Shown: positions 1 to 21,788, counted from the first letter of the stretch. The stretch: DNA of 48,317 nt from a virus (IMGVR_UViG_3300037193_000503:1-48317), one strand, 5' to 3'. Numbers and translations are program-made. Notes: a model not told the origin generated them from the letters alone.

Positions 1-141
1 CAGGTCTCGACGCTGAACACGTGCGGTGTTCAGCACCAGATCGAGAAGAAGTGGAACAAGCCGGGCAGGCCCCACATGTCTACCCTGGGGGGCTCGGCGT
101 TCCACCTTCTCGCGGAGCACGAGGTGCTTGTCGAGAACGGC
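1..141. repeat. Terminal direct repeat, left copy
   Basis: Identical over 141 bases to 48177-48317. A gene reads through the junction without interruption when the ends are joined, so the repeat marks circular closure. A length of exactly 141 equals a common maximal assembly k-mer, so it is more likely an assembly overlap of a circular contig than a biological terminal repeat. Confidence 0.95.
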
Positions 142-2698: not shown

Positions 2699-2737
2699 AA
2701 CAACCCCTGTTTCTCCTCGTGAGAAACGGGGGTTGTT
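2699..2737 (+). terminator. Terminator hairpin fused to the next promoter
   Basis: The arm at 2699-2715 pairs with 2721-2737 over 17 positions (one T-G pair) around loop CTCGT, followed by TCTTGTCT. The downstream edge of the stem supplies the -35 box TTGTTT (2733-2738) of the next promoter. Confidence 0.85.
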
Positions 2738-2761
2738 TCTTGTCTCGGGGTGTGCTACGCT
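2733..2761 (+). promoter_or_regulatory. Promoter giving a leaderless mRNA
   Basis: TTGTTT (2733-2738), 17-base spacer ending GGGGTGTGC, and TACGCT (2756-2761). The downstream ATG at 2768 lies seven bases after the -10 box, where transcription should begin, so the mRNA is predicted to be leaderless. Confidence 0.75.
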
Positions 2762-6775: not shown

Positions 6776-6799
6776 GCCCGGGGGTTGACACCCCCGGGC
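6776..6799 (+). terminator. Hairpin with a -35 box as its loop
   Basis: GCCCGGGGG (6776-6784) and CCCCCGGGC (6791-6799) are a perfect 9-bp stem whose six-base loop is exactly TTGACA, the -35 box of the next promoter. It is followed by TTCGTC. It may both end the upstream transcript and embed the promoter. Confidence 0.75.
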
Positions 6800-6814
6800 T
6801 TCGTCATGTAGATT
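6785..6814 (+). promoter_or_regulatory. Promoter of 6866 operon
   Basis: TTGACA (6785-6790), 18-base spacer, TAGATT (6809-6814). The expected leader contains a small hairpin, GCAACC-ACTGG-GGTTGC (6826-6842), before the ribosome site. Confidence 0.7.
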
Positions 6815-6865
6815 GAGTTCCAGAAGCAACCACTGGGGTTGCCTCCCCGAAAGAAAGGCGAGACC

Positions 6866-7120
6866 ATGGCGGTTCTGAACCTGGAGCAGCAGACTCCCCC
6901 CACCGACACCACAGTGCTCGGTCGCTACTACCTCCTGGCCCCCACGGAGGAACTGGAGAAGGCCGTGAAGTCCCTCCAGTTCGAACTGGAGATGCGAGCC
7001 AACCGTGACGCCATCGGCGCCAACCAGAAGGCCGTGAGCGCCGCCCGGCGACAGGAGATCGAGGAGGCGCTGGCCTCCGTCGAGAAGGGCGTGTTCGACG
7101 TCGAGGCGGAGGGTCTCTGA
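6866..7120 (+). CDS. Hypothetical protein
   Basis: 84 residues from ATG at 6866, with AAAGG upstream. A short beta-like N-terminus (TVLGRYYLL) precedes a long charged helix (residues 30-80). The start overlaps nothing upstream, consistent with the promoter at 6785-6814 beginning a new unit. Couples to the next gene by TGATG. Function unknown. Confidence 0.65.
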   Translation: MAVLNLEQQTPPTDTTVLGRYYLLAPTEELEKAVKSLQFELEMRANRDAIGANQKAVSAARRQEIEEALASVEKGVFDVEAEGL

Positions 7121-7605
7121 TGCCCCGCAACCGTTCCGTGTACCTGGCCACGTGGAAGAACATCGAGGACGTGTACGAGATCTGGACCGACATGGGCGAG
7201 ATCGACAACACCGACGTCACCGACTACGACGCCCTCCAGGTGCTGAAGGAACTGGACGAGCGTCGTGGGCGCAAGCGGGGACTCCAGCGTGGCGTGAAGT
7301 ACGGCGACCCGTACGAGACCCAGATCTCCCGTGACGAGCGGGCGTCCATCGTGGAGTGGCTGAGCAACCGCTGGAAGTACTCGCCCGTGGTGGACGAGGT
7401 CGCCCTGGCCCGGTTCGCCCACAGCCGCTCGAAGGCCCACTACGACGCCCTGACGCGTCGTGAGCAGCGGCTCGCAGAGCAGCGACTCCCCCCGCAGGAC
7501 GTCACGAACGTCACCCCCGAGGGGTGGACCGGTGAGGAGTGGTCGCTCCTGCGTGGTCGGGCCAACCGCAAGCGGGAGTACCGCAACGAGAAGGCGGCGG
7601 CGTGA
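7120..7605 (+). CDS. Hypothetical protein
   Basis: 161 residues, start overlapping the upstream stop. Strongly charged and mostly helical, with a basic central part (RRGRKRGLQRGVKYG) that could touch nucleic acid. It is directly upstream of the primase gene, whose GTG start overlaps its stop (GTGA), so a replication-accessory role is plausible but unproven. Confidence 0.65.
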   Translation: MPRNRSVYLATWKNIEDVYEIWTDMGEIDNTDVTDYDALQVLKELDERRGRKRGLQRGVKYGDPYETQISRDERASIVEWLSNRWKYSPVVDEVALARFAHSRSKAHYDALTRREQRLAEQRLPPQDVTNVTPEGWTGEEWSLLRGRANRKREYRNEKAAA

Positions 7606-7988
7606 CGCGCGAGCCGGTCCCCCAACTAGACCTGGCCAAGGTGCTCACCTACTACGGGGTGGCGTTTCGGCAAACCAGCGGGTGGCATAATGTGTGTTGT
7701 CCCGTCCACGACGAGCGGAACCCAGACTGCGGGGTAAACCTCGATGCCGGGAAGATCTACTGTCACGCGTGTGGGTTTCGGGGGGATGGGCTAGACCTCA
7801 TCCAGGAGAAGGAAGGCATCGGACTTGTTGAAGCCGTTGAGTTCGCACACCAAGAAGGCTTTGCTCTCGGCCTCGCAGACGTTCGCTCAGGCCCTCCCCG
7901 GAAGTCCCGGGGAAGCCTACCTTCGAGATCGGGGGATCATGGGCCGGACGGCCGAGCGGCTGATGCTCGGCTACGTAGACCCAGATAA
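7602..7988 (+). CDS. DnaG-type primase, zinc-binding N-terminal part
   Basis: Starts at GTG 7602, overlapping the upstream stop. Residues 30-60 are a CHC2-type zinc ribbon: C32-C33-P-V-H36 and C54-H-A-C57, followed by GFRGDGLDLI as in DnaG. Homology-like sequence ends near residue 83 (VEFAHQEG, about 7852); the remaining 40 codons to 7988 look like out-of-frame reading of the TOPRIM frame. The TOPRIM part continues at +1 from about 7853 to 8586. The two would make one 327-residue primase if the ribosome shifts +1 near CACCAAGAA. Confidence 0.75.
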   Translation: MTREPVPQLDLAKVLTYYGVAFRQTSGWHNVCCPVHDERNPDCGVNLDAGKIYCHACGFRGDGLDLIQEKEGIGLVEAVEFAHQEGFALGLADVRSGPPRKSRGSLPSRSGDHGPDGRAADARLRRPR

Positions 7989-8586
7989 CCCGCCGGAGGG
8001 CTGGCAGCGTTACGCTGGCCGCATTGCCATCCCGTACCTGAACATGAAGGGTGACCCGGTGTGGATCAAGTTCCGCGCCACGCCGGGCATCACCCCTGAG
8101 GGTGCGGACAAGTACGCCCAGGAGCCTGGCGGGGGGACACCGCTGTACAACACCCTCGCCCTGTCGGCCCAGGGCGATACCCTGGTCATCGTGGAGGGTG
8201 AGTTCGACACCATCACCATGACCGCTCTGGGGATTCCTGCGGTGGGGATTCCCGGGGCGAACAACTGGAAGTCCCACTTCCCGAGATGTCTCCAGGGCTG
8301 GTCGCGGCTCGTCATGTTCTACGACGACGACAAGCCCGGCAGGGACCTGGTGAAACTCGTGAAGAAGCAGATCCCCGACGTCATTCCGTTGGCCCCACCA
8401 GGGGGCCATCATGACGTGGGTGAAGCGTATGAGGCTGGTTTGGGTGAGGCCATTGTCAGGGCCGCCCGTGGAGAAGAAAGCGAGCAGGACCATGACGACA
8501 ACAGAGCAGCACAAGCCCCGGCACCTGAGGTTGGTGCCGCCGGTTTCAACGGCATCGCCCACCCCGAGAGCGACCCCCCGTTCTGA
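7825..8586 (+). CDS. DnaG-type primase, TOPRIM part (+1 frame)
   Basis: 253 residues if translated from TTG 7825. Conserved sequence starts at KKALLSASQTFAQ and YLRDRGI, as in bacterial primase cores. The TOPRIM domain shows IVEGEFD (catalytic Glu) and MFYDDDKPG (DxD). An internal ribosome site, AGGAGAAGGAAGG, lies eight bases before TTG 7825, so separate translation is a real alternative to frameshifting. The last 35 residues are a low-complexity acidic/Ala-Pro tail that overlaps the next gene. The enzyme lays RNA primers for the helicase encoded at 4748-5611. Confidence 0.78.
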   Translation: MLKPLSSHTKKALLSASQTFAQALPGSPGEAYLRDRGIMGRTAERLMLGYVDPDNPPEGWQRYAGRIAIPYLNMKGDPVWIKFRATPGITPEGADKYAQEPGGGTPLYNTLALSAQGDTLVIVEGEFDTITMTALGIPAVGIPGANNWKSHFPRCLQGWSRLVMFYDDDKPGRDLVKLVKKQIPDVIPLAPPGGHHDVGEAYEAGLGEAIVRAARGEESEQDHDDNRAAQAPAPEVGAAGFNGIAHPESDPPF

Positions 8587-8746
8587 GGAGGTCCGGGAGG
8601 GCCTCCGGGACGCCCGCTTCTCCCTTGGGCGCGCGTACGAGGACTTCATCCGGATGAACCAGGGGTTCACTCAGGAGGGTGACGCGGCCTGGTTCTTCGA
8701 GGAGGCCGTCCGCGAGATGGCCCAGGAGATCGGCGGACCGGCATGA
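8492..8746 (+). CDS. Hypothetical protein
   Basis: 84 residues from ATG at 8492, preceded by AGCAGGA, inside the end of the primase gene (95-base overlap). The N-terminal 35 residues are Pro/Thr/Arg rich and probably disordered; the rest is a helical domain (LGRAYEDFIRMNQ). The overlapping part of the primase is its non-conserved tail, so both frames can be real. Function unknown. Confidence 0.6.
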   Translation: MTTTEQHKPRHLRLVPPVSTASPTPRATPRSEEVREGLRDARFSLGRAYEDFIRMNQGFTQEGDAAWFFEEAVREMAQEIGGPA

Positions 8747-9525
8747 GCGCCCGCATCCTCGTCTTGGATATTGAGACGTCGCCCGCCCTCTACTGGGGGT
8801 ATGGCCTGTTCAACCAGAACCACGGCATCAAGCAGATCGAACGCGAGCCCGAGATCATCGGCTGGGCGACCCGCTGGGAGGACGAGCCCGCCTCGACCTG
8901 TACCTGGTACGACGGCCCGGCCATGGAGGGCTACGCGGCCGACCTCCCGCTCCTCTGGGAGCAGTTGGACCAGGCGACGCACGTCATGCACTTCAACGGC
9001 AAGTCGTTCGACATCCCGTGGGTGAACCACTCGTTCATCAAGCACAAGATCAACAAGGGCCGACCCCCGTCGCCCTACAAGCAGGTTGACCTGATGAAGC
9101 AGATCCGGGGCACGACCCGCAACATCAGCAACAAGTTGGACTGGCTATCCCGGGACCTGTTCGAACTGGAAGGCAAGATCGGGGTCAACGCCCTCGATCA
9201 GTGGATCAAGATGTACCGCGCCTTCCAGGCGGGGGACATGAAGGCGTACGAGAAGGCTCGCGCCGAGATGGCCCGGTACTGCAAGCAGGATGTCAACCTC
9301 CTGCCCAAGATGAAGAGGAAGTACCTGCCGTGGATGAGCGGTCTGGGCATCAACCAGTACAACGGCCTGCTCGACTCGTGCCCCAACTGCGGCGGCGCGA
9401 ACGCCCAGCGGCGGGGGATCTACTCCTCCGGCGCTGGAAACTACCAGCGGTACCGGTGCTCGTGCGGCACGTGGTACCGGGGCAACCGGTCCATCGAGAT
9501 GTCCACCACGAGGAACGCCAAGTGA
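8743..9525 (+). CDS. DEDD-type 3'-5' exonuclease with C-terminal zinc ribbon
   Basis: 260 residues; ATGA overlap with the upstream stop. RNase H-fold exonuclease motifs are in order: ExoI VLDIETSP (residues 6-13), ExoII HFNGKSFDIPW, ExoIII YCKQDVNLL. These supply the four metal-binding acidic residues of PolB-type proofreading and YprB-like exonucleases. The C-terminus has CPNCGG and CSCGTW, a four-Cys zinc ribbon absent from minimal family members. It stands alone without a polymerase domain, so it may act in DNA repair, host DNA breakdown or proofreading in trans. Confidence 0.82.
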   Translation: MSARILVLDIETSPALYWGYGLFNQNHGIKQIEREPEIIGWATRWEDEPASTCTWYDGPAMEGYAADLPLLWEQLDQATHVMHFNGKSFDIPWVNHSFIKHKINKGRPPSPYKQVDLMKQIRGTTRNISNKLDWLSRDLFELEGKIGVNALDQWIKMYRAFQAGDMKAYEKARAEMARYCKQDVNLLPKMKRKYLPWMSGLGINQYNGLLDSCPNCGGANAQRRGIYSSGAGNYQRYRCSCGTWYRGNRSIEMSTTRNAK

Positions 9526-9526
9526 T

Positions 9527-10150
9527 ATGGGGGTGCGCACGATGACGAGGCAAGACGTGAGCGTCCTCTACGAGGTCGCAGGAAGGGCCGCAGCAGCCCA
9601 CGTGAAGGCCCGTGGGCTTCCGGCCCACATGCGAGACGATCTGACGCAGGAGGGCGTCCTGTGGCTCCTGGAGCACCCGCAGCGACTATCCCGCGTGGAG
9701 GGTGAGGACGTCCGCAACACGAGCCAGGTGGTGGCGGAGATCCGGCGCCACTTCGTGACCACGGGCGTGGACCGCCCACCGGGGGCGGTCGAGGACCCGG
9801 CCGACGGCAGGGAGTACACACCCGACATGGTGGCCCTCATCTTCCCGGCGGTGTACGACCCGGAGTACACCCCGTTCCGCGAGCAGGACGAGGCCGCTGA
9901 GCGGTTCTCTGAGCGCGACCCGTCAGAGGCCAACACGTGGCTCGCCATGGTGGCGGACGTGAGCGCCGCCCTGGATGCCTACGGCCGCAAGTCTGACAAC
10001 GTCCGGTACGTGTTCCGCCACGAGATCCTGGGCGAGACGTTCGAGGACATCGGCGTTGCCGAGGGGGTGTCTCGCGAGACGGCCCGGCGCCGACACGCGG
10101 ACGTCCTGGCGTGGATGTCCGACTGGCTGAGCGGAACCCTCGGCGAATAG
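9527..10150 (+). CDS. Sigma-70-like regulator
   Basis: 207 residues from ATG 9527; ATG 9542 is an alternative with GGGGGTG upstream. The N-terminal half has a DDLTQEGVLWLL stretch resembling sigma region 2, and the C-terminus (ETFEDIGVAEGVSRETARRR) is a helix-turn-helix like sigma region 4. It could redirect host RNA polymerase to phage promoters, for example the late promoters, but the region-2 match is weak and it may be only a DNA-binding regulator. A terminator follows directly. Confidence 0.65.
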   Translation: MGVRTMTRQDVSVLYEVAGRAAAAHVKARGLPAHMRDDLTQEGVLWLLEHPQRLSRVEGEDVRNTSQVVAEIRRHFVTTGVDRPPGAVEDPADGREYTPDMVALIFPAVYDPEYTPFREQDEAAERFSERDPSEANTWLAMVADVSAALDAYGRKSDNVRYVFRHEILGETFEDIGVAEGVSRETARRRHADVLAWMSDWLSGTLGE

Positions 10151-10162
10151 TAAACCCTGAGT

Positions 10163-10186
10163 AAGCCCGTCCTTTGGGGCGGGCTT
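10163..10186 (+). terminator. Intrinsic terminator
   Basis: AAGCCCG (10163-10169) pairs with CGGGCTT (10180-10186), with further pairing inside, followed by CTCTTT. It ends the replication-gene transcript. Confidence 0.8.
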
Positions 10187-10218
10187 CTCTTTACCCCAAC
10201 GCTAGGAGTTTTGTACCA

Positions 10219-10488
10219 ATGACCCAAGTTCGAGTGTATGGCCGACCCGACCGCGTGTGCACCAAGTGCATGGCGACCAAGCGGTGGCTGAGGCGCCACG
10301 GCGTCGAGTTCCAGTTCATCAACGTGGACGAGGACCCGGAAGGGTTCGCGTTCGTTCATGACCTCGGCGCCCTGGAGGTCCCCGTCGTGGTGGTGAACCC
10401 CAACGACAAGCACGGCGACATCGAGTGGTGGAGCGGCCACAGAATCCCCCGACTGGAGGCTCTTGCCAAGCGGCTGGAGCAGGAGTAG
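10219..10488 (+). CDS. Glutaredoxin/NrdH-like thiol reductase
   Basis: 89 residues from ATG 10219; AGGAG lies 10 bases upstream. A thioredoxin-fold beginning (VRVYGRPD) is followed by CTKC (a CxxC active site) and the cis-Pro segment EVPVVVV, typical of glutaredoxin/NrdH proteins that reduce ribonucleotide reductase or other disulfides. No reductase gene is present, so it would work with the host enzyme. An upstream reading from 10174 would run through the terminator and is rejected. Confidence 0.8.
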   Translation: MTQVRVYGRPDRVCTKCMATKRWLRRHGVEFQFINVDEDPEGFAFVHDLGALEVPVVVVNPNDKHGDIEWWSGHRIPRLEALAKRLEQE

Positions 10489-10560
10489 GGTGGACGCAGG
10501 AAAGGGACCCCGGCTAGCCGCCTTGCCGCAGGGCGCGGCTCCCCGGCAGGACCACACAGA

Positions 10561-10584
10561 GACCCCCGGTTGACGCCGGGGGTC
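10561..10584 (+). terminator. Hairpin with a -35 box as its loop
   Basis: GACCCCCGG (10561-10569) pairs perfectly with CCGGGGGTC (10576-10584), and the loop is exactly TTGACG, the -35 box of the next promoter. TTCTCGTCT follows. Confidence 0.75.
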
Positions 10585-10598
10585 TTCTCGTCTATCAT
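10570..10598 (+). promoter_or_regulatory. Promoter giving a leaderless mRNA
   Basis: TTGACG (10570-10575), 17 bases, TATCAT (10593-10598). ATG 10606 starts eight bases after the -10 box, which is where transcription should begin. Confidence 0.7.
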
Positions 10599-10605
10599 GG
10601 ACGGC

Positions 10606-11079
10606 ATGGACGACGCGACGTGGAACAGAATCCAGGAGAAGCGGGCACGCAACGCCTACTTCCGTGGGCTCGACGAGGCCGCGCGCAAAGCCCAGGCGCC
10701 AGCCAAGCCCAAGGCACCCCGCGCACGGGCCCCACGGCCCTCCCGGGCCACTGGCGTGGGACGTGGTGGTCGCGAGCAGATCTACACCCACTGCAAGGGG
10801 TGCGGTCGCCCGCTACGGCCCCGGCAGAAGACAGCCACCGACATGCCCGGGACCCGGATGCACTACCGGGGCGGGTACTGCAAGCCCTGCACCAACCCCC
10901 GCAAGGGGATGCTCGGCCGCCCTCAGAAGCGGTCGAGGGTGTGCCGGGTGTGCCAGCGTGGGATGCGCATGTCGTCCCGTGAGAGCCTGGCAGACCGGCC
11001 CGGCACCGTGCCCTACGGTCGAGATGACATGTGCCGCACGTGCGCAAAGAAGGAGGCGATAAACAAGTCACACCAGTAA
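10606..11079 (+). CDS. Tandem zinc-ribbon protein
   Basis: 157 residues from ATG 10606, chosen because it matches the expected transcription start; an ATG at 10597 overlaps the -10 box. After a basic Ala/Pro-rich linker there are two similar modules: CKGCGRPLR...YCKPC and CRVCQRGMR...MCRTC, each with a D-x-PGT segment between the Cys pairs. The repeats suggest internal duplication and nucleic-acid binding. A phage regulator is likely, but the target is unknown. Confidence 0.75.
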   Translation: MDDATWNRIQEKRARNAYFRGLDEAARKAQAPAKPKAPRARAPRPSRATGVGRGGREQIYTHCKGCGRPLRPRQKTATDMPGTRMHYRGGYCKPCTNPRKGMLGRPQKRSRVCRVCQRGMRMSSRESLADRPGTVPYGRDDMCRTCAKKEAINKSHQ

Positions 11080-11116
11080 TGACCACCGGCCCAACTCCCA
11101 CCAGGAGGTAAGCAAC

Positions 11117-11803
11117 ATGCTTCGCAAGATCAGCACTACCATCATTGCCGTGCTCGTCGCGGCTACCACGGCCCTCGTGGCCGCACCTGCCGCCCATGCG
11201 GCACCCGACACCATCATCCAGAACGCCACGCCGTTCACGCGTGGTGACCAGAACGTGTTCCGCGTCAAGATCCACACCGAGTGGGGTAAGAGCGCCAGGA
11301 TCTACTTGGGCGCCCGCAGCCACCAGTGGAAGCCCACCAGGTACGGCTGGGTGGAGTTCCGCGTCGGTAGGCACACGCTGCGGGACAACACACCCACCAC
11401 GGTCACCGTGAAGGTGTACCGCAACTCTCGGGTTCTCTACACCCTCAGGTACCGCATCGCGGACAAGCACGAGACGCGTGGTGAGGCCATCCTCCGTGAG
11501 GCGCGGCAGGAGAAGGGCGACCGGTACCGCTACGGTGGTACTGGGCCCAACGCGTGGGACTGCTCGGGCCTGGTGGCGCACGCGGTGCGTGCTGCCACGG
11601 GTAAGCGACTCCCCCACTCCAGCACCGGCATCCGCAACGCGGGCCAGCGAGTGAAGTCCCCCCGCCCGGGTGATGTCGTATGGACGCCAGGCCACGTGTC
11701 GGTGTATGCTGGGCACGGTAGGGTGGTTGAAGCCGCCCGACCTGGCACCCGGGTCCGTGAGGTCCCCCGGTGGCAGCACAACCCCGTCTATATCCGCTTC
11801 TAG
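11117..11803 (+). CDS. Secreted NlpC/P60 cell-wall peptidase
   Basis: 228 residues; AGGAGGT precedes the ATG. A Sec signal peptide (LRK, hydrophobic core, AHA-AP cleavage after residue 28) is followed by a 75-residue beta domain and an NlpC/P60 domain with catalytic DCSG (Cys149) and GHVSVY (His193). Such enzymes cut peptide bonds in peptidoglycan stems. It is in the early region, away from the lysis genes, and carries its own export signal, so it may alter the host wall during infection (superinfection exclusion or helping release) rather than act in the virion. That role is inference. Confidence 0.85.
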   Translation: MLRKISTTIIAVLVAATTALVAAPAAHAAPDTIIQNATPFTRGDQNVFRVKIHTEWGKSARIYLGARSHQWKPTRYGWVEFRVGRHTLRDNTPTTVTVKVYRNSRVLYTLRYRIADKHETRGEAILREARQEKGDRYRYGGTGPNAWDCSGLVAHAVRAATGKRLPHSSTGIRNAGQRVKSPRPGDVVWTPGHVSVYAGHGRVVEAARPGTRVREVPRWQHNPVYIRF

Positions 11804-11818
11804 GCCCAGGAGGGCACC

Positions 11819-12031
11819 ATGACCGTGATGCTGGAGACTCCGTGCGAGGAGTGCGGGCTTGCCCCGGTGCTCTTTCTGACCACGCATGCACGAACGTTCG
11901 GCCACATCTACAGCATGGCCGGGTTCAAGCACTACGCCCAGACCGGCGTGTGCGAGTGGTGCGCGGAGATCCTCGCCGACTTCGCGGTCATGGGAAAGGG
12001 CGTGCAGGGGTTGCGCCCCGGCGAGAAGTAG
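11819..12031 (+). CDS. Small zinc-binding protein
   Basis: 70 residues; GGAGG lies upstream. CEECG near the start and CEWC near residue 46 could bind one zinc, with His residues between. No DNA-binding helix is obvious. Its last codons contain the promoter of the next gene. Function unknown. Confidence 0.6.
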   Translation: MTVMLETPCEECGLAPVLFLTTHARTFGHIYSMAGFKHYAQTGVCEWCAEILADFAVMGKGVQGLRPGEK

Positions 12032-12039
12032 GCTACGCT
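12011..12039 (+). promoter_or_regulatory. Promoter inside the end of the upstream gene
   Basis: TTGCGC (12011-12016), 17 bases, TACGCT (12034-12039). A start near 12046 gives a 40-base leader with AGGGAG before ATG 12087. Confidence 0.7.
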
Positions 12040-12086
12040 CTACACATCGGGCCACACCAGGTGGCCCCTGAGCAGGGAGAACAACC

Positions 12087-12620
12087 ATGCAGCGCAAGGC
12101 ACTCACCCCCGGCAAGCACTACCTCTACAGCGACAACAGGGACTGGAAGTCCGGGTTCCGCGTCAGCGAGGTCGAGGTGCTGGACACCACCGACTGGTCC
12201 GTCTCCTCCATGTGGAGCGCCCGTCGGGAGCCCTGGGAGTTCACCACCACCACGGGCGAGACGGTGACCGTCCGCGGTTCGTACCTCAACCAGAAGCCCT
12301 ACGCCAGCGAGTCGCACGTGCTCGTGCGGTTCGTCAAGGACGGTCGCATCGGTCTCGTCGCACCCCGCGAACTGCGCGGCGAGTGGGGCGACGCGTCAGC
12401 CGAGTGGGCCGCCACCCAGGCGGCCCAGGCCAGGGAGGCCAAGGCCGAGCGTGAGCGCCGCGCCATGCTGCGCGACCGGGCCGCCGACGCGTCCGACGCC
12501 TTCAAGGAACTGTTCGGGTTCGAGGTGTACGTCTCCAGCGAGGGCCGTGCTCACCTGCGGATCAACGAACTGGAGCGGATGCTCGCCGTGGCCCGGCTGA
12601 ACGCCGCCCCCAAGTCCTGA
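12087..12620 (+). CDS. Hypothetical protein
   Basis: 177 residues. The first 95 are rich in beta-type segments (FRVSEVEVLDTT, SHVLVRFV); 105-145 is a strongly charged helix rich in Ala, Glu and Arg; the last 40 are mixed. No enzyme motif seen. It is a single-gene unit between promoters at 12011 and 12625. Function unknown. Confidence 0.65.
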   Translation: MQRKALTPGKHYLYSDNRDWKSGFRVSEVEVLDTTDWSVSSMWSARREPWEFTTTTGETVTVRGSYLNQKPYASESHVLVRFVKDGRIGLVAPRELRGEWGDASAEWAATQAAQAREAKAERERRAMLRDRAADASDAFKELFGFEVYVSSEGRAHLRINELERMLAVARLNAAPKS

Positions 12621-12624
12621 CGCA

Positions 12625-12653
12625 TTGCTTCCATCGCGATACCGTGGTATCGT
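12625..12653 (+). promoter_or_regulatory. Promoter with a palindromic operator
   Basis: TTGCTT (12625-12630), 17 bases, TATCGT (12648-12653). CGATACC-GT-GGTATCG (12637-12652) is a perfect inverted repeat lying over the spacer and -10 box, where a dimeric repressor would block RNA polymerase. Confidence 0.7.
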
Positions 12654-12703
12654 GGTGGGAGTTGTCCAGCAGGGCAGACCGAAACCGACAGAAGGGCAAG
12701 ACC

Positions 12704-12979
12704 ATGCAGAACCAGTTCCCCCGCAGCACGCGGGCGTACGAGGTGCAGTTCACCCCTAACAGCGTGGCCCGTCTCCGTGGGCTCACCCAGGAGGTGGTGA
12801 AGGTCACCGAGGTTGCCGTCGGCACCAAGGACGCGATCAACAAGGCCAGCCAGAAGTTCGACCTGGACTTCCGCATGGTCACCCACCCGGGCGCGGACGG
12901 GCTCGCCACCGCGTACGCCGACGATGGTGTCATCGTGGGCCAGTTCCAGGCAAAGCGGAGCCGGAAGGGTGCGAACTGA
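12704..12979 (+). CDS. Hypothetical protein
   Basis: 91 residues from ATG 12704 after GAAGGG. Short alpha/beta protein (YEVQFTPNSV, GVIVGQFQ) with a basic C-terminus. The upstream in-frame GTG at 12644 overlaps the promoter and is rejected. If the palindrome at 12637 is an operator, this gene and the next are under specific control. Function unknown. Confidence 0.6.
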   Translation: MQNQFPRSTRAYEVQFTPNSVARLRGLTQEVVKVTEVAVGTKDAINKASQKFDLDFRMVTHPGADGLATAYADDGVIVGQFQAKRSRKGAN

Positions 12980-12980
12980 C

Positions 12981-13493
12981 ATGACCGAGTTCAAGAAGGG
13001 CCAGAAGGTCCGCGTCACGACCAGCAGCGTTCGATACGACGAGCGCGACCCGGCCGCGTTCTTCGAGGGGGACATCCTTACCCTCCTGCGCGACGAGCCC
13101 GACGAGGAGAACGAGTTCTACGCCCGGCGCGACACGGACGGCCAGTCGGGCTACGTGGTCGCCACGGCCATCGAACCGGCACCCCTGGACAAGTCCGGGG
13201 TGAAGCCGGGTGACACCGTGGTGGTGCGTGGCGAGGTGTTCGTCACCAGCCTCAACGAGTCCGTGGTGAAGGTCCACGCGGACACCACCGACCTGCTGGA
13301 GCACGAGCCCGCCGTGGTGACGCCCAAGCCTGGGTACGGCACCGCGGTGGTGGGGGGGGCGCCGCCGGGTCGGTCACCTCAGCCTGGACCAGCGGTTCCA
13401 CTACCTGGCGGGCGGCGGGATCGCGGTCCAGGTGGCCGCGTGGTCGGACTTCCGGCCCGCGCCGAAGTGATCGGCCAACCCTCACGACAGTAA
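12981..13493 (+). CDS. SH3/KOW-like protein, frame broken at a poly-G tract
   Basis: 170 residues as read from ATG 12981. The N-terminus MTEFKKGQKVRV starts like the 60-residue minus-strand protein at 46068-46250 (MTEFKVGDRV). Two SH3-like beta stretches are visible (KGQKVRVT; KPGDTVVVRGEVF). Residues after G8 (13352-13359) are Pro/Arg rich and look like a wrong frame. In the +1 frame the sequence continues as GHLSLDQRFHYL...DFRPAPK and stops at 13470. Seven G would restore one 162-residue protein. Either a sequencing/assembly error or a true slippery tract. Confidence 0.65.
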   Translation: MTEFKKGQKVRVTTSSVRYDERDPAAFFEGDILTLLRDEPDEENEFYARRDTDGQSGYVVATAIEPAPLDKSGVKPGDTVVVRGEVFVTSLNESVVKVHADTTDLLEHEPAVVTPKPGYGTAVVGGAPPGRSPQPGPAVPLPGGRRDRGPGGRVVGLPARAEVIGQPSRQ

Positions 13494-13509
13494 TCTGCCA
13501 ACCTACGAC

Positions 13510-13566
13510 GTGCAGGTGACGCGCGCGGAGTACCTGACAGCCTGGTACAAAGGTTGGTACAAGTAG
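13510..13566 (+). CDS. Possible tiny peptide or read-through extension
   Basis: GTG 13510 starts an 18-codon frame ending AWYKGWYK. It is in the same frame as the restored end of the upstream protein, separated from its TGA (13468-13470) by 13 sense codons, so it could also be a read-through extension. Aromatic-rich and protein-like, but too short to be sure. Low confidence. Confidence 0.25.
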   Translation: MQVTRAEYLTAWYKGWYK

Positions 13567-13605
13567 CAGTGGTGACACTGCTACAGAGCACCCACCACGG
13601 TGGGT
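13563..13605 (+). terminator. Two successive hairpins
   Basis: GTAGCAGT (13563-13570) and ACTGCTAC (13577-13584) form a perfect 8-bp stem. Immediately after, CACCCACC and GTGGGTG form a second. Neither has a T run, but together with the next hairpin they insulate the downstream promoter. Confidence 0.5.
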
Positions 13606-13617
13606 GTGCACAAATTG

Positions 13618-13653
13618 GACGGGCGGTTGGGGTTGACACCCCGGCCGCCCGTC
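13618..13653 (+). terminator. Hairpin carrying a -35 box
   Basis: GACGGGCGG (13618-13626) pairs perfectly with CCGCCCGTC (13645-13653), with GGGG/CCCC nested inside. The apical part contains TTGACA (13633-13638), the -35 box of the next promoter. Confidence 0.7.
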
Positions 13654-13661
13654 TGTATGTT
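13633..13661 (+). promoter_or_regulatory. Promoter of the 68-residue gene
   Basis: TTGACA (13633-13638), 17 bases, TATGTT (13656-13661): the best sigma70-type match in the window. Confidence 0.8.
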
Positions 13662-13704
13662 GGGTGTCAGAAGGGCCGGACGGACCGGCCCGAGAGAGGG
13701 AACC

Positions 13705-13911
13705 ATGGACTTCAACATCGACAACATCATGCGTTTCGAGGGCGGCGAGATGACCGAGGAGGAGATGGTCGAGTTCTTCCAGGCCGGTATCGACTCGGGC
13801 GCCGTCTGGAACCTTCAGGGTTACTACGGACGCACCGCCCTTGCCCTGATCGACGATGGGGCATGCACACCGGCTACGTACGGCATCCCGTCCGTGCCCG
13901 GCCGCCGCTGA
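13705..13911 (+). CDS. Small conserved-looking phage protein
   Basis: 68 residues from ATG 13705 after GAGAGAGGG. An acidic helical N-terminus (MTEEEMVEFFQAGIDSG) is followed by WNLQGYYGRTA. Short proteins with an LQG-x-YGRTA element recur in tailed phages; no function is established that I can name. It is a single-gene unit with its own strong promoter and a terminator after it, typical of a highly expressed early gene. Confidence 0.7.
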   Translation: MDFNIDNIMRFEGGEMTEEEMVEFFQAGIDSGAVWNLQGYYGRTALALIDDGACTPATYGIPSVPGRR

Positions 13912-13923
13912 GCCACAACCGAC

Positions 13924-13949
13924 CAACCCCCGGCGAAAGTCGGGGGTTG
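13924..13949 (+). terminator. Terminator hairpin with GAAA tetraloop fused to the next promoter
   Basis: CAACCCCCG (13924-13932) pairs with CGGGGGTTG (13941-13949) and extends to a C-GAAA-G cap. The last TTG is the beginning of the next -35 box TTGCGT. Confidence 0.8.
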
Positions 13950-13976
13950 CGTCATGTCCAGGGACCGTGGTACGTT
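13947..13976 (+). promoter_or_regulatory. Promoter of the 189-residue gene
   Basis: TTGCGT (13947-13952), 18 bases, TACGTT (13971-13976). The predicted leader has GGCACCGA...TCGGTGCC (13986-14005), a hairpin just before the ribosome site. Confidence 0.65.
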
Positions 13977-14016
13977 CTGACAGTAGGCACCGAAGGTCGG
14001 TGCCGGAGAGGCGACC

Positions 14017-14586
14017 ATGAGGGACCACACCAGCAACATCCGTGACGTGCTCGCCCAGGCCACACCCACGGAGATTGCGGCGGGCCAGCGCTGGTACGAC
14101 GAGGCCATGGAACTGGCAGAGACCCTGTCCGGTAGGGGCAACCCCGAGATGGGGGCCGGTGTCATCGCCGCACTGTCCCCCCTCACCCCGTGGGGCCGCA
14201 ACAAGGAAATGGCGATCCGCGCGTTCGCCGACGGTCACGCGTCCGGCACCCTGGGCAACAGCATCAAGGCCGCCGACCGGATCCTCGGCGGTGAGGACCC
14301 GCTCGACGTTCTCAAGAGCGACAAGGTGCGCAACTTCTACCTCAGCATCATTGGCGACACCGACGCCGTCTGCATCGACCGTCACGCGCTGGAGGTGTAC
14401 CAGGGCAAGCGGTACCGCGACAGTGAGCGGCCCGCCATCGGCAAGCGGCTCTACCGTGAGGCGGCCACCGCCTACCGCGACACGGCGCGGAGCCTGCCCT
14501 ACACCGCCACCCAATTGCAGGCCATCACGTGGCTGGTGTGGCGCCGCATCCACCTGACCGGTACCCGTTACGAGATTCTTCTCTGA
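14017..14586 (+). CDS. Phage protein with a glycosylase-like helical pattern
   Basis: 189 residues. The segment around residues 85-130 (ADRILGG, KVRNFYLSIIGD, VCIDRHALEVY) has the rhythm of HhH-GPD DNA glycosylases, where helices around a conserved Asp bind DNA, but no helix-hairpin-helix or iron-sulfur cysteines are visible. It may be a phage-specific relative in DNA modification or host takeover; this is weak. Single-gene unit with its own promoter. Confidence 0.55.
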   Translation: MRDHTSNIRDVLAQATPTEIAAGQRWYDEAMELAETLSGRGNPEMGAGVIAALSPLTPWGRNKEMAIRAFADGHASGTLGNSIKAADRILGGEDPLDVLKSDKVRNFYLSIIGDTDAVCIDRHALEVYQGKRYRDSERPAIGKRLYREAATAYRDTARSLPYTATQLQAITWLVWRRIHLTGTRYEILL

Positions 14587-14592
14587 CAGGGG

Positions 14593-14622
14593 TTGCACAC
14601 CCCGAAAGGGGTGTGCTACGGT
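14593..14622 (+). promoter_or_regulatory. Promoter with a perfect hairpin/operator in its spacer
   Basis: TTGCAC (14593-14598) and TACGGT (14617-14622), 18-base spacing. GCACACCCC-GAAA-GGGGTGTGC (14595-14616) is a perfect 9-bp inverted repeat covering the spacer. GGGGTGTGC before the -10 box is shared with the promoters at 852 and 2756. Confidence 0.75.
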
Positions 14623-14666: not shown

Positions 14667-15035
14667 ATGTACATTCAGGCCAACATCGGACGCAACTCGA
14701 AGAACGTCCCCATGAGCGACAGCGCGTGGCAGAAGTTCCAGACGGACACGCGGAGGGCGATCATGGCCGCGATCTACGGACCCAACCCCGCCCTCCCGAT
14801 CCTCCACCTCCAGTCACAGTTCCAGTTCCACACGGGCATCGGTGAGTGGGACGGCGTCACCGAAGAGTCCGCACACATCAGCGTCTACTTCGACACCAAG
14901 CCCGGCCAGGTCAACGCTGCCAAAGTGACCGAGCACATGCGGGACCGTCTCGCCGACCTGGCCCGCGCGTACGGGCAGGATGCCATCGCGTTCATGGTCA
15001 CCGACTCCACCCTCGCGCTCGCAACCGACGACTGA
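14667..15035 (+). CDS. Hypothetical protein
   Basis: 122 residues from ATG 14667. Alternating beta and helical segments (ILHLQSQFQFH, AHISVYFD, LADLARAYGQDAIAFMV) suggest a compact alpha/beta fold. An upstream in-frame reading crosses the promoter and is rejected. Function unknown. The 86 bases after it hold a small ACGGCC-TAC-GGGCCGT-type hairpin. Confidence 0.65.
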   Translation: MYIQANIGRNSKNVPMSDSAWQKFQTDTRRAIMAAIYGPNPALPILHLQSQFQFHTGIGEWDGVTEESAHISVYFDTKPGQVNAAKVTEHMRDRLADLARAYGQDAIAFMVTDSTLALATDD

Positions 15036-15121
15036 GAGAGAGTCGAAACGGCCTACGGGCCGTCGTCCGGGATGGCTACCGGGCCTGATGAGACAGCCAA
15101 ACAGACAGAAGGGCAAGGATC

Positions 15122-15415
15122 ATGCTCCGCACCGAACTCGACAAGGCACGCGAGACCATCATCGCCGCGATGGACGCCGCACGCAAGATCCCCCCAGCCG
15201 TGGGCACCGTCGCCGTCAGCGGATGGACCATCACCCACGCGCTCGCGGACGGCACCACAGCGACGTACGCATACAAGCACGCCGTCGGAGACGAACTCTA
15301 CCTCACCACCACCATCGTGCAGGACGGCGTGCGACGGGTCACCAGCACATCGCTCCACAACGCCAAGGCCGTGCAGAACCACCTCCGGGCCGTGCTCGTA
15401 GACCTGTACAGGTAG
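15122..15415 (+). CDS. Hypothetical protein
   Basis: 97 residues; GGGCAAGGA precedes the ATG. An N-terminal helix (LDKARETIIAAMDAARKI) is followed by four or five beta-type segments (VAVSGWTITH, TATYAYKH, YLTTTIV) and a C-terminal helix. No family recognised. Unlike its neighbours it has no clear promoter and may be transcribed with the 14667 gene. Confidence 0.65.
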   Translation: MLRTELDKARETIIAAMDAARKIPPAVGTVAVSGWTITHALADGTTATYAYKHAVGDELYLTTTIVQDGVRRVTSTSLHNAKAVQNHLRAVLVDLYR

Positions 15416-15439
15416 TAGGCTACAGGACTTTCTTCTCTC

Positions 15440-15475
15440 TACCCCCTTGCGGCTCACACCGTGAGGGGGTAGACT
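15440..15475 (+). promoter_or_regulatory. Promoter overlapped by an inverted repeat
   Basis: TTGCGG (15447-15452), 17 bases, TAGACT (15470-15475). CTACCCCCT (15440-15448) and AGGGGGTAG (15464-15472) pair perfectly and cover parts of both boxes, so the repeat is an operator, a terminator of the upstream gene, or both. Confidence 0.7.
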
Positions 15476-15863: not shown

Positions 15864-15878
15864 ACCACCACCACGCAC

Positions 15879-15902
15879 AGCCCGGGCCCCACAGCCCGGG
15901 CT
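15879..15902 (+). terminator. Terminator hairpin ending the early region
   Basis: AGCCCGGGC (15879-15887), loop CCCACA, GCCCGGGCT (15894-15902). A perfect 9-bp GC-rich stem at the boundary between the early genes and the non-coding segment. Confidence 0.75.
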
Positions 15903-16004
15903 TACGTGTGCCCATGGTGCGCCCCCCAATGGTGACACGATAGTCAACTCTCGTAACCTCACCCTTGGTTGTGGTTCGCCTCCATCTACCCATAACATGG
16001 TGTC

Positions 16005-16130
16005 ATTCACGTGTATTGTTGTGTATTATGTATTGTATTACACACACACACCACACACCCACCCAACGCCATTCTTCCACGCACACACGCACCATTCCCC
16101 ACACACAACAACACAGCATTGTCTGTGCAT
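16005..16130. other. AT-rich and CA-rich island, possible replication origin
   Basis: 16011-16040 is only about 23% GC in a genome that is otherwise strongly GC-rich, and holds four TGTATT copies (16012, 16022, 16029, 16034). It is followed by about 90 bases almost without G on the plus strand, with long CACACA runs. No gene fits. AT-rich direct repeats plus strand asymmetry are what an origin with an unwinding element looks like; a packaging site next to the terminase genes is the alternative. Confidence 0.45.
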
Positions 16131-16254
16131 TCCATTGTGCGCATCCCTTTCGACCCGGGGGATGCTAAGGGAGTGGACTTCAACCCCAGAACAAAGGTCT
16201 GAGTTCCCCAGGGTGTACCCCTTTTTTTGTGTGGGGGCCCTGTTGTTTAGGGGG

Positions 16255-16268
16255 TATACTGATACGCT
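16255..16268 (+). promoter_or_regulatory. Possible late promoter -10 elements
   Basis: TATACT (16255-16260) and TACGCT (16263-16268) lie close together after a C-T7 run at 16220-16228. Neither has a well-placed -35 box; TTGTTT at 16243 is too close to the second. A late promoter needing a different factor, perhaps the phage sigma-like protein, is possible. Confidence 0.35.
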
Positions 16269-16325
16269 GGTACTCCTCTATGCCTGGTCCGTATGGTGAG
16301 ATGGGGTGTGTGAGGTGCGTCACGT

Positions 16326-16757
16326 AAGGCTACCCTAAGAACCGCAGGATCGTGCGGCTTGTGAAAGCCTTCACCACTTTCGAGAGCAGTGCTCTTGTGC
16401 GAGAGCACCCGTTGCACGTGGTAGTTACTTAGTGTAACGTCAAGTTACACCGGGTAGTGACCCCAAGGGAACGAACCGGTGGAACGGTGGTTGCCTTTCG
16501 TAACTCGGCCAGACCTATGTCTGGCGGCAGACTACCTTTCCCGGCCGCTCATTCTTCGCGGCAAAAACCCCTTATACTTCATGCCCCTGGGTGGGCAGGG
16601 GCATGAAGGTCCCGTACATTTCCGTGAGGGAAATGTCAATTAGGGGACAGGCACAATGGGGTGCCTGTCCTACAACGGGACCACACCCTCCCGGCCTCTT
16701 TTGATCCGGCCGGTCGAGACCAACCCGATCCTCCCGGGGCTCCTTTAATCCGCCCCG
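16326..16757. other. Array of perfect hairpins in non-coding DNA
   Basis: Successive stems: AAGGCT/AGCCTT enclosing CCGCA/TGCGG (16326-16371); TGCTCT/AGAGCA (16390-16407); GTGTAAC/GTTACAC (16432-16450); CCAGAC/GTCTGG (16509-16524); a 13-bp stem, 16577-16589 with 16596-16608; ACATTTCC/GGAAATGT (16616-16636); GGACAGGCAC/GTGCCTGTCC (16645-16670); CCGGCC/GGCCGG (16691-16713); CGGGGC/GCCCCG (16735-16757). No coding frame of quality runs through. It could be a structured leader or ncRNA, a packaging site, or an origin. Confidence 0.65.
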
Positions 16758-16839
16758 TACGGATCCACCCAACCATCCCCCTGACCCTCTCCCCCCAAGC
16801 GGACTCGCGCAGGGGCCGCGCAGGAGCCGCCCCTCGTGT

Positions 16840-16845
16840 TACGCT
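16840..16845 (+). promoter_or_regulatory. Possible late promoter before the membrane-protein gene
   Basis: TACGCT preceded by CGTGT, like the minus-strand promoter at 47814 (GTGT-TACGCT). No -35 box is recognisable at 16-18 bases. A start near 16852 would give a short leader with TTAGGAGAG before ATG 16870. Confidence 0.45.
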
Positions 16846-16869
16846 CGCCTCCTCAACTTAGGAGAGATC

Positions 16870-19122: not shown

Positions 19123-20932
19123 TAACCTGACGTTCGACTCGGGCTTGAAGGCCCGTGTCGATATGCTGCGGGAGAAGTACGGCTACCGCGACGCCGAGGT
19201 CACGCTGGTCACCAACGTCCGTCGAGGCGACTGGAACCTGCTCGACCCGGATGCGTTCTCGGATGCGTACCCTCGCCCGATTGTGGCGAACATGATCGAC
19301 GTGCAGGCGCGGCATGCGGCTGCGGCCCTGAGCCCGCTGCCGTCGATGCGCTGCCGGGCCACGTCCCAGGGGGCGTCGCAGGCGGCGAAGAACCGCGCGG
19401 ACACCCGCACCCGGATCGTGAACCACTACTTCGAGCGGTCCCGCGTGGCCGCCCAGATGCAGAACGGCGCTGACGGTTTCGCGGCCCTCGGTCTGATCGT
19501 GGGCCAGGTGGTCCCGAACTTCGAGGACAAGATGCCGGACATCCTGATCCGCGACTCCCGGAACTTCTACCCCGTGTGGGACGCGAAGGGCCGGACCGTG
19601 GAGGCGGCTCACGTCTTCAACATGCGGGTCGTGGACCTGGTGGCCCAGTACCCGGAGGCGGCGACGCTGCTGGCCCGCACGGACACGAACGGCCGCAAGC
19701 CGTCGAGGAACGAGACCTTGGAGGTCACGCACCACGACGACGGCGACTACATCACCCTCTTCGTGGGTGAGCGTGACGGGCTCGTGCTCCAGCGGATGAA
19801 GAACCCGGTGGGGCGGTGCCTCTTCGTGTGCACGCCTCGCGCGACGGGCGAGGACGGCTACGTCCGGGGCATGTTCGGTGACATGCCGTGGGCCCAGTTG
19901 GCTCGCAACGAGATGCAGATGCTGACGCTGGAGGCGACCGCGAAGGCGGTCCAGGCCCCGGTGGCGGTGCCCCCAGACGTGACGGACATGCCCACGGGCC
20001 CGGATGCTATCATCCGGACGAACGCCCCCCGGGATGTCCACCGTGTCGGGCTGGAGATCCCCCGCGAGGCCTTCATGGCCATCGATCACTTCACCTCGGA
20101 ACTTCGGCAGGGCACGATCACGCCGGAGGCCATGGGTGGCAGCATCGACGCGTCGGTCGTGACCGGTCGCGGCGTGCAGGAGTTGATGGCTGGGTACAGC
20201 CAGCAGGTCGCCATGATGCAGCAGACGCTGGTCGGCTTCTTCGAGGAGTTGGCCTGCCTGTGCTTCAAGGCGGATCAGGCGCTGTGGCCGAACGACGAGA
20301 AGACCGCCGAGGGCGTCAAGGACGGCAACGAGTATAGCATTCGCTACACTCCGGCGAAGGACATCAACGGCAACTACACCGTGGACGTCACTTACGGCAC
20401 GAGCACGGGGCTGGACCCGAACCGCCACCTGGTGTGGCTGTTGCAGTTGGTCAGCGCCGGTCTGTACTCGCGGGACACTGCCCTGCGTGAGTTGCCGTAC
20501 GCAATCAACCCTCAGGACGAGTCCGCGAAGATCATGGTGGAGCAGGGTCGCGATGCGGTCATGGCTGCCGTGTCGGGGCTCGCGCAGGGCATTGGGGCGA
20601 TGGCCCAGAACGGCATGGACCCTGCTCCTATCGTCGCTCAGATCGCTGAGTTCGTGGACGAGTTGGAGAAGGGCAAGCCGATCGAGGAGATCGCCAAGAA
20701 GGTGTTCGCACCGCCCGAGCCGGAGCCAGCAAGCGAGGGGGCCGTTAGCCCCGAAGATCCTATGGCTGCGCTTCTCGGTGGGGCTGGTGGGGCACCTGGT
20801 GGCGAGGAGATGATGGTCCCCGGGCAGGCGCGCGAGGGCCGTCCGGATCTCGCCTCCATGTTCGCTGGCCTCACGGCTGGCGGCGACCCGAACTTGTCTG
20901 GCAGCGTTCAGCGCCAGGCTGTTGCTTTCTAA
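19115..20932 (+). CDS. Portal protein
   Basis: 605 residues from GTG inside the terminase end. Placement after the terminase, the length, and the sequence course (an N-terminal helical region with ARHAAAALSP, a central beta part with YITLFVGERDG, and a long C-terminal helical part around residues 300-420) fit podovirus/siphovirus portals, the 12-fold ring through which DNA enters the head. The last 60 residues are Gly/Pro/Ala rich (GGAGGAPGGE) and probably disordered. Confidence 0.82.
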   Translation: MASNLTFDSGLKARVDMLREKYGYRDAEVTLVTNVRRGDWNLLDPDAFSDAYPRPIVANMIDVQARHAAAALSPLPSMRCRATSQGASQAAKNRADTRTRIVNHYFERSRVAAQMQNGADGFAALGLIVGQVVPNFEDKMPDILIRDSRNFYPVWDAKGRTVEAAHVFNMRVVDLVAQYPEAATLLARTDTNGRKPSRNETLEVTHHDDGDYITLFVGERDGLVLQRMKNPVGRCLFVCTPRATGEDGYVRGMFGDMPWAQLARNEMQMLTLEATAKAVQAPVAVPPDVTDMPTGPDAIIRTNAPRDVHRVGLEIPREAFMAIDHFTSELRQGTITPEAMGGSIDASVVTGRGVQELMAGYSQQVAMMQQTLVGFFEELACLCFKADQALWPNDEKTAEGVKDGNEYSIRYTPAKDINGNYTVDVTYGTSTGLDPNRHLVWLLQLVSAGLYSRDTALRELPYAINPQDESAKIMVEQGRDAVMAAVSGLAQGIGAMAQNGMDPAPIVAQIAEFVDELEKGKPIEEIAKKVFAPPEPEPASEGAVSPEDPMAALLGGAGGAPGGEEMMVPGQAREGRPDLASMFAGLTAGGDPNLSGSVQRQAVAF

Positions 20933-20941
20933 GGAGTGGCC

Positions 20942-21169
20942 ATGGATGAGAACGAGACGTACACGATCAAGCCGGTTCGGCTGAACTGGGCTGACGTGTT
21001 CATGTCCGTGGCGACGTTCGCGAAGGGTGTTGCCGAGGCGGCCCACGATGCGTGGGAGGTCCTGGAGATCTCGTTCGCTGGCCACTCGAACTACATCGCG
21101 GAGAAGCAGGAGTTCCAGCGTGACGCTGGCAGGGCCATCGAGGCCCTGACGAAGGAGAGTGGTGACTGA
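20942..21169 (+). CDS. Hypothetical late protein
   Basis: 75 residues from ATG 20942; AAGGAG ends five bases upstream, which excludes the earlier in-frame GTG that overlaps it. Mostly one or two helices (VFMSVATFAKGVAEAAHDAWEV). Coupled to the next small gene by TGATG. Perhaps a portal or head accessory, from position. Confidence 0.65.
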   Translation: MDENETYTIKPVRLNWADVFMSVATFAKGVAEAAHDAWEVLEISFAGHSNYIAEKQEFQRDAGRAIEALTKESGD

Positions 21170-21321
21170 TGGGTGAGGTCCACGTGGTCCCCCATGAGGA
21201 CCTCGTCTTGCACGAGGTCGCCGGGGATGAGTGCCCCTGCGGCCCCGACCCGCTGTACGACGGCGGGGGCGTCATCTACAAGCACCACTCCTTGGATAAC
21301 CGTGAAGCAGGTGAGGTCTGA
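21169..21321 (+). CDS. Tiny late protein with a CPCGP element
   Basis: 50 residues: ATG overlaps the upstream stop and its own TGA overlaps the next ATG (TGATG at both ends), so it is coupled on both sides. It starts GEVHVVPHEDLVLHEV and contains DECPCGPDPLYDGGG. The perfect spacing and protein-like composition make it real despite its size. Function unknown. Confidence 0.7.
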   Translation: MGEVHVVPHEDLVLHEVAGDECPCGPDPLYDGGGVIYKHHSLDNREAGEV

Positions 21322-21779
21322 TGCCCGCAGGTGGGTACCAGGCGCCCTCGTCCCCCGCGAGGGTTTCCGGTCCGGGCAAGTTCGCCAAGCGGACCGACAA
21401 CCCGCAGGTCGAGGCCCTGGCAACAGAGTACGGTGAGGGTACTGCGATGGCGGACCTGAGGGCTGGCGCCCCGGTCCAGCAGCCACGCAAGGCTACCATC
21501 CAGCCCGACCGGGGGGGCGCTAGTGCCGCCCCCTCACCCCTGGCTGGGTTCGGCGACCCGTCCATGATGACCGATGTCCCGGTGACCGACGGTGCCGCGA
21601 GCGGCCCTGGTGCGGGACTGGAGGCCCTGGGGCTTCCGCAGTCCAGCCAGGAGGAGGCCGCCGCTGATGTGGCGTCCCTCCACCCGGGCTACATCGAGGC
21701 ACTGGTCAAGGCGTCCATGCGTGAGAACGCGACGCCTTCGTTCAAGCGTTACGTCAGGGGTCTCCTGGCGAACCGTTAG
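21321..21779 (+). CDS. Hypothetical head-assembly protein
   Basis: 152 residues, low complexity, rich in Pro, Ala, Gly and Ser in the first 115, with an ordered helical C-terminus (HPGYIEALVKASMRENA). The arrangement of a disordered body with a helical end occurs in head-accessory proteins. Located between portal and the giant virion protein. Function not known. Confidence 0.6.
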   Translation: MPAGGYQAPSSPARVSGPGKFAKRTDNPQVEALATEYGEGTAMADLRAGAPVQQPRKATIQPDRGGASAAPSPLAGFGDPSMMTDVPVTDGAASGPGAGLEALGLPQSSQEEAAADVASLHPGYIEALVKASMRENATPSFKRYVRGLLANR

Positions 21780-21788
21780 GAGATCTAA

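Follow-up and report, generated by a model that had tools for sequence, protein, structure and literature searches.

The hairpins that recur at promoters in the early region of this phage genome can, with good probability, be described as compact intrinsic terminator/promoter fusions, in which the loop of a terminator would double as the -35 box of the next promoter. The fusion of hairpin and promoter is real and far from chance, and we infer from sequence comparison that the hairpins terminate transcription, that the promoters fire and that they are read by the housekeeping sigma factor of the host.

The window, by which we mean the whole stretch of DNA that was analysed, is a complete virus genome of 48,317 bp with a 141-bp direct terminal repeat. 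Its terminase is approximately 40% identical to those of the Streptomyces phages FlowerPower and Immanuel3 (Beephvirinae), a resemblance which suggests that the host is probably a Streptomyces-like actinobacterium. In the circular layout, both the modules and the replication genes (helicase, primase, polymerase exonuclease and endonuclease VII) are on the + strand, upstream of the terminase. Matches to RNA families across the window comprise only tRNAs and one hammerhead ribozyme, scored at 15041-15102. Gene starts in the window were set by inspection and a few are 1 base off, which affects only the edges of the gaps.

Hairpin-promoter elements in the window

All seven sites listed in the earlier note as fusions of a hairpin with a sigma70-type promoter do carry a strong hairpin overlapping a promoter of the form TTGNNN-(17/18)-TANNNT, and their predicted RNA folds range from -21 to -36 kcal/mol (z of -4.1 to -7.0), with none of 200 shuffles being as stable. 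In Element A (6776..6814, + strand) the hairpin at 6776-6799 reads GCCCGGGGG-TTGACA-CCCCCGGGC, its loop being the -35 box TTGACA (6785-6790), and a spacer of 18 leads to the -10 box TAGATT (6809-6814). Element B (10560..10598, + strand) has the hairpin AGACCCCCGG-TTGACG-CCGGGGGTCT at 10560-10585, with the -35 box TTGACG (10570-10575) as its loop, a spacer of 17, the -10 box TATCAT at 10593-10598 and an ATG at 10606. These two sites had been singled out as those whose loop is exactly the -35 hexamer, which is correct for both, but Element C (13617..13661, + strand), which was filed differently, is a third: the apical loop of its 17-bp hairpin (13617-13654, including G-U pairs) falls within the -35 box TTGACA (13633-13638), followed by a spacer of 17 and the -10 box TATGTT (13656-13661).

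The other sites, also on the + strand, are variants of this arrangement. At 2699..2761 the descending arm of a terminator-like 17-bp hairpin (2699-2737) supplies the TTG of the -35 box TTGTTT (2733-2738), with the -10 box TACGCT at 2756-2761 and an ATG at 2768, and at 13924..13976 the descending arm of a hairpin located 12 nt past the upstream stop (13924-13949) does the same for TTGCGT (13947-13952), with TACGTT (13971-13976) as the -10 box. At 14589..14622 the spacer between TTGCAC (14593-14598) and TACGGT (14617-14622) is itself a hairpin (14595-14616), for which an alternative 5-bp hairpin, GGGGT-TGCAC-ACCCC, puts the -35 box in the loop. Both the supply of the -35 TTG by a descending stem and the filling of the spacer by a hairpin are thus as originally described. 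The site at 15438..15475 has a 15-bp hairpin (15438-15473, including G-U pairs) with the -35 box TTGCGG (15447-15452) at the end of its left arm and the -10 box TAGACT (15470-15475) overlapping its right arm. The hairpins had been described as perfect, which the stems at 2699, 13618 and 15440 are only when G-U pairs are counted. A weak and previously unlisted case, read from the sequence, is present at 12007..12039 (+ strand) at the 3' end of the ORF 11819-12031, where GGGG-TTGCG-CCCC (12007-12019) surrounds the -35 box TTGCGC (12011-12016) and the -10 box is TACGCT (12034-12039).

For comparison, the hairpin at 10163..10192 (+ strand), with a T-rich tail and located 12 nt past a stop, has no promoter and is an ordinary terminator-like site; together with the promoterless hairpins at 15879, 32938 and 43442 it shows that the fused design is not present in every gap. 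The hairpins of the elements start 8-71 nt past stop codons (124 nt for the one at 13617), in which they resemble the promoterless hairpins at 10163 and 15879. A T-tract directly after the stem is weak or absent at the window elements, and the stems differ in sequence between sites. In the elements at 2699 and 10560 an ATG occurs 6-7 nt past the end of the -10 box (2761 and 10598), which suggests that the mRNAs starting there are probably leaderless; such mRNAs are common in Streptomyces and make up 22% in S. avermitilis (PMC8780764). The modules had also been described as separating single genes. This is accurate for 13.6-15.5 kb, to which a one- or two-gene spacing is confined, but approximately 9 ORFs lie between 2699 and 6776 and approximately 7 between 6776 and 10560, and the early modules head multi-gene operons.

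Departure from chance in the genome

Of the 75 TTGAC occurrences in the genome (both strands), three (6785, 10570 and 13633) sit within the loops of perfect stems of 5 bp or longer, and each of the three is a -35 box with a -10 box at 17-18 nt. For all three loop-located TTGAC to be promoters the hypergeometric P is 6e-5, and dinucleotide shuffles yielded a mean of 0.003 loop-located promoters, with 0/300 reaching three. The early-region gaps hold 11 promoters (a TTGACA-like -35 box, a spacer of 16-18 and a TANNNT -10 box) against 0.7 expected; five share sequence with a perfect stem of 7 bp or longer (0.01 expected) and four have the -35 box in the loop (0.005 expected). None of 400 gap shuffles attained the observed count of promoters, of overlaps or of loop-located -35 boxes. 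The strict geometry, with the -35 box in the loop, applies to only 3-4 of the approximately 11 early-gap promoters.

Recurrence in other viruses

The earlier note had proposed comparing loop-located -35 boxes with shuffled sequence and searching for them in other phages, and the excess in the window is matched by recurrence in viral contigs. A scan for GGGG-TTGACA-CCCC plus a -10 box gave at least 120 matches, and among the matches listed the spacer is exactly 17 in 73/81 sites and a frequent form is GAGGGG-TTGACA-CCCCTC-TTTTTTT-...-TATAAT, which reads as a textbook terminator with the -35 box for its loop and the T-tract for the promoter spacer. The control with non-complementary arms (GGGG..GGGG) gave 77 matches in all. 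The next pairs are complementary in 67% and 65% of cases with complementary arms (among the matches listed) vs. 23% and 17% with non-complementary arms, and a T-tract occupies the spacer in 72% (again among the matches listed) vs. 7%. When the -10 box was not required, GGGGG-TTGACA-CCCCC occurred at least 119 times in viral contigs, compared to 2 occurrences in the entire collection of the reversed loop between the same arms (GGGGGACAGTTCCCCC); among the matches listed, TANNNT is found at a spacer of 17 in 39/81 and at 18 in 14, over a background of approximately 1.4 per spacer.

The stem type of Element B (CCCGG-TTGACN-CCGGG) also occurs in other viruses, where TTTTTT and a -10 box at 18 accompany it, and none of the named phages matched the CCCGG-TTGACG group of viruses. 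The terminator T-tract usually falls within the spacer in viruses of low GC, most of them cyanophages; GC-rich viral examples are without it. S-SM2 carries the element at 46772, between SSM2_055 and SSM2_056 (AGGGCACC-TTGACG-GGTGCCCT-TTTTTT, -10 box TAAATT), and annotated examples occur in ACG-2014f near 31.97 kb and, with one mismatch in the stem, in an Enterococcus Saphexavirus. Streptococcus phage P7631, a BLAST match to the motif, was set aside, as its hairpin has a T-tract but no TTGACA loop. Gene context on unannotated contigs was taken from mechanical ORFs.

A pattern that makes no reference to hairpins, TTGACA-N6-TTTTTT-N5-TATNAT, gave 106 distinct viral sequences among the matches listed, and contigs match Synechococcus and Prochlorococcus phages. 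Since the viral sequences of all scans were deduplicated by a short key only, the contigs are in part related to one another and the P values should be read as nominal. In 36% of the 106 a stem of 5 bp or longer has the -35 box as its loop, compared to 0-7% for nine other hairpin centres, and the flanking bases covary, with z values of 4.4, 4.7, 3.5, 4.4, 2.0 and 6.0 for pairs 1-6. The 18 exact-register stems of at least 4 bp contain 12 different 5-bp arms. No case with a hairpin comes after a divergent gene (0/38, against 11/64). Among 1,228 TTGAC promoters unselected for hairpins, stems of 7 bp or longer show a local excess at the -35 centre and also occur upstream and downstream of it, which makes the fusion one among several arrangements.

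The clearest case of a module separating single genes is an array in an uncultured tailed phage (G062/L586; 41.6 kb, GC 61%), which has genes for tail tape measure, portal and DNA polymerase proteins. Nine consecutive hairpin-promoter cassettes are present, each with GGGGGG-TTGACA-(A)CCCCCC and a -10 box at spacer 16; the ATG is placed exactly 34 nt from the start of the -35 box. From the layout each element would drive a single ORF, 62-106 aa in length, and in eight cases the stop of the ORF precedes the following -35 box by 14-28 nt. The G062 stems are near-identical copies, unlike those of the window, and as in the window the elements are without T-tracts in a GC-rich genome.

Closer to the window, no phage match to the early region was found by megablast, and a protein search with the exonuclease found no relatives in viral contigs. 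A TerL search returned one 75% relative (L002, 6.6 kb), in which the module is absent at the homologous gap, and many at 35-43%; TTGAC promoters in the TerL relatives show no excess of -35 boxes in loops. The design was not found in the genomes of phiC31, FlowerPower, Immanuel3 and Endor2. The viral-contig comparisons strongly suggest that the -35-in-loop idea generalises beyond this phage to many unrelated viruses. As the earlier note maintained, the architecture and not the sequence is repeated, with other viruses sharing the design on stems that differ and covary.

Alternative explanations

Hairpins after stop codons also protect mRNAs, and the hairpins considered here could stabilise the upstream mRNA end or mark a processing site without any termination of their own. 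The lack of T-tracts in the window, and also among GC-rich viral examples, would agree with such a role, but low-GC viruses have a T-tract directly after the stem, which is the signature of a terminator, and we regard this explanation as unlikely. It is also important to consider palindromic operators, in which the inverted repeats would bind a repressor or activator over the promoter and would not be terminators. The inverted repeats do overlap -35 boxes, the promoter at 12625-12653 has a short palindrome across its -10 box, and the nine G062 copies have near-identical arms. The window stems differ in sequence, however, and elsewhere the arms show covariation over many sequences and have T-tracts after them, for which operators have no need, so that operators seem a rather improbable reading. 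L5-type stoperators, with one short conserved repressor-bound sequence everywhere, are likewise unlike the window, where the stems differ by site.

The suggestion in the earlier note that cruciform extrusion or read-through might influence promoter opening gains no support here, since T-tract, covariation and post-stop position point to an RNA hairpin. Extrusion is in principle conceivable for stems of 9-17 bp with small loops, and a supercoil-driven cruciform or a single-stranded, N4-like hairpin promoter could then control opening. The loop is nevertheless a normal double-strand sigma-70 -35 box with a normal -10 box at 17-18, a cruciform needs no T-tract, and stems elsewhere are as short as 5 bp; we therefore give this possibility very little weight. 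N4-type promoters, with a small extruded hairpin, a 3-nt loop and a virion RNA polymerase, differ from the elements of the window in stem length, in the loop being the -35 box and in the standard -10 box downstream. Least credible of all would be chance, base composition or a host liking for G-rich/C-rich -35 flanks. GGGGTTGACACCCC is also found in one Streptomyces chromosomal promoter, but the GGGG..CCCC promoter with its -10 box is present in only 5/61 Streptomyces genomes (approximately 0.5 Gb), four of the five being closely similar and apparently one chromosomal promoter, and the form with non-complementary arms in 0/61. This rarity means that the density of elements in the window is not a host habit, and host promoter preference was ruled out. 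The shuffles of genome and gaps, the covariation and the scarcity of the reversed loop all stand against chance.

Discussion

A function as RNA hairpin is indicated by the T-tract between stem and -10 box, together with the covarying stems, and a function as promoter by the fixed TTGACA loop and the 17-nt spacing. In the favoured reading as a terminator/promoter fusion, the upstream transcript would fold into a GC-rich RNA hairpin soon after the stop codon and would be ended or sharply reduced. The six loop bases would act, as double-stranded DNA, as the -35 box of a sigma-70-type promoter, and the tail region of the terminator as the spacer, after which would come the -10 box and a leader that is short or missing. 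A stretch of approximately 40-50 bp could in this way punctuate a same-strand gene series and restart transcription at once; as the hairpin loop carries half of the next start signal, stop and start would fit within approximately 45 bases. The proposal of the earlier note that a single element might both terminate the transcript before it and initiate the following one gains strong support from the comparison, in which the T-tract elsewhere usually lies within the promoter spacer, and its interpretation as a whole is partly supported. Against the fusion reading, window elements are without a clear T-tract, and a study of S. avermitilis reports that intrinsic termination is not prevalent there (PMC8780764). 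The absence of the module from L002 and of the design from the four named phages also counts against it, as does the small share of early-gap promoters with the strict geometry.

An open-access literature search on terminator/promoter overlap gave no description of a fused element in phages, and on that literature we regard its novelty as provisional. The early region of Streptomyces phage phiC31 has multiple early promoters, and its terminator and promoter adjoin and are not one element, which is a difference from the window. Its genome (AJ006589) gave no TTGACN-16..18-TANNNT site and no -35-in-loop element. The part of PMC8355165 that cites Ingham et al. (1995) describes early Rho-independent terminators of phiC31 without poly-U tails, and on that account phiC31 is like the window in having actinophage early genes punctuated by T-tract-less hairpin terminators, with promoters between genes. 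Morons of lambdoid and other phages are promoter-gene-terminator cassettes (PMC1524935, PMC2784084), and the G062 array, with its transcriptionally autonomous single-gene cassettes, resembles a chain of morons; the signals of a moron flank its gene separately, whereas here one element would serve both neighbours. For T4-like cyanophages, among which the T-tract form is common, sigma-70 promoters and terminators have been predicted (Sullivan et al., 2010, PMC3037559); in the parts of that paper covered they are separate predictions with overlap unmentioned.

Plain economy of space would be enough as a benefit of the coupling. Re-use of the terminating RNA polymerase at the fused element is plausible and speculative, by analogy with single-molecule work in vitro in which polymerase stays on the DNA after intrinsic termination and re-initiates downstream in 37-55% of terminations (PMC6978380); coupling of the post-termination polymerase to nearby sense promoters, at which it can re-initiate in vitro, has been proposed (PMC6978322, PMC11347151). 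Terminator and promoter are separate in that work, with no -35 box within the terminator loop, and the fusion would represent the shortest possible distance between them. Only tentatively would we extend this to a relay, doubtful as it is, in which the polymerase, its RNA released at the hairpin, would re-initiate on the next promoter without leaving the DNA, gene by gene, many unrelated phages having reached the geometry independently.

Annotation as a rule treats terminators and promoters as two signals, and a recurrent dual element, if true, would alter the calling of phage transcription units and illustrate how phages fit stops and starts into very small gaps. The fixed geometry (loop as -35 box, tail as spacer, -10 box at 17) makes the element easy to search for and to test by one-arm changes, and the fused element would provide a natural setting in which to test how far post-termination recycling of polymerase is of importance in cells.

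Related arrangements in other genomes

The nearest relative of the window phage, L002 (75% by the terminase TerL), carries at 2075-2115 a 7-bp hairpin (CCGGCGC...GCGCCGG) whose 15-nt loop encloses a TTGACG promoter, and this element is a loose form of the design in which the -35 hexamer occupies the loop. In the uncultured phage G062, nine tandem cassettes at 19356-21892 (loci L729/L730), each consisting of a hairpin-promoter and one ORF of 62-106 aa (with the N-terminus MKTNT in most), adjoin replication genes. Complementary arms also flank the -35, as in the phage elements, in a recurrent promoter of Streptomyces chromosomes (agggg-TTGACA-cccct, then TAGCTT and ctgaatcgtttca), which we found at L405 and at many other Streptomyces loci among L405-L516.

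Other elements of the window

The promoter TTGCTT-17-TATCGT at 12625-12653 has its -10 within a short palindrome (CGATACCGTGGTATCG), and it resembles an operator more closely than it does a terminator. Two further promoters, at 829-857 and 14593-14622, have TTGCACAC...GTGTGYTA in common and contain inverted CACAC/GTGTG in their spacers; this motif is a possible shared binding site.

Within ORF 12981-13493 there is a G run at ~13350-13358, and since a second frame runs on to a stop near 13470, slippage or a sequence error is possible. Directly upstream of the terminase, ~1 kb (15864-16869) has no clear genes and holds stretches rich in TATTG and in GT/CA; it may be the region where the linear genome is packaged or ends.

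The only gap without a promoter-hairpin in the local gene stretch, that between ORFs 14667-15035 and 15122-15415, holds a match to the type II hammerhead ribozyme (15041-15102, plus strand; 50.9 bits against an Rfam cut-off of 37). Self-cleavage by this predicted ribozyme may split the messages of the two ORFs.
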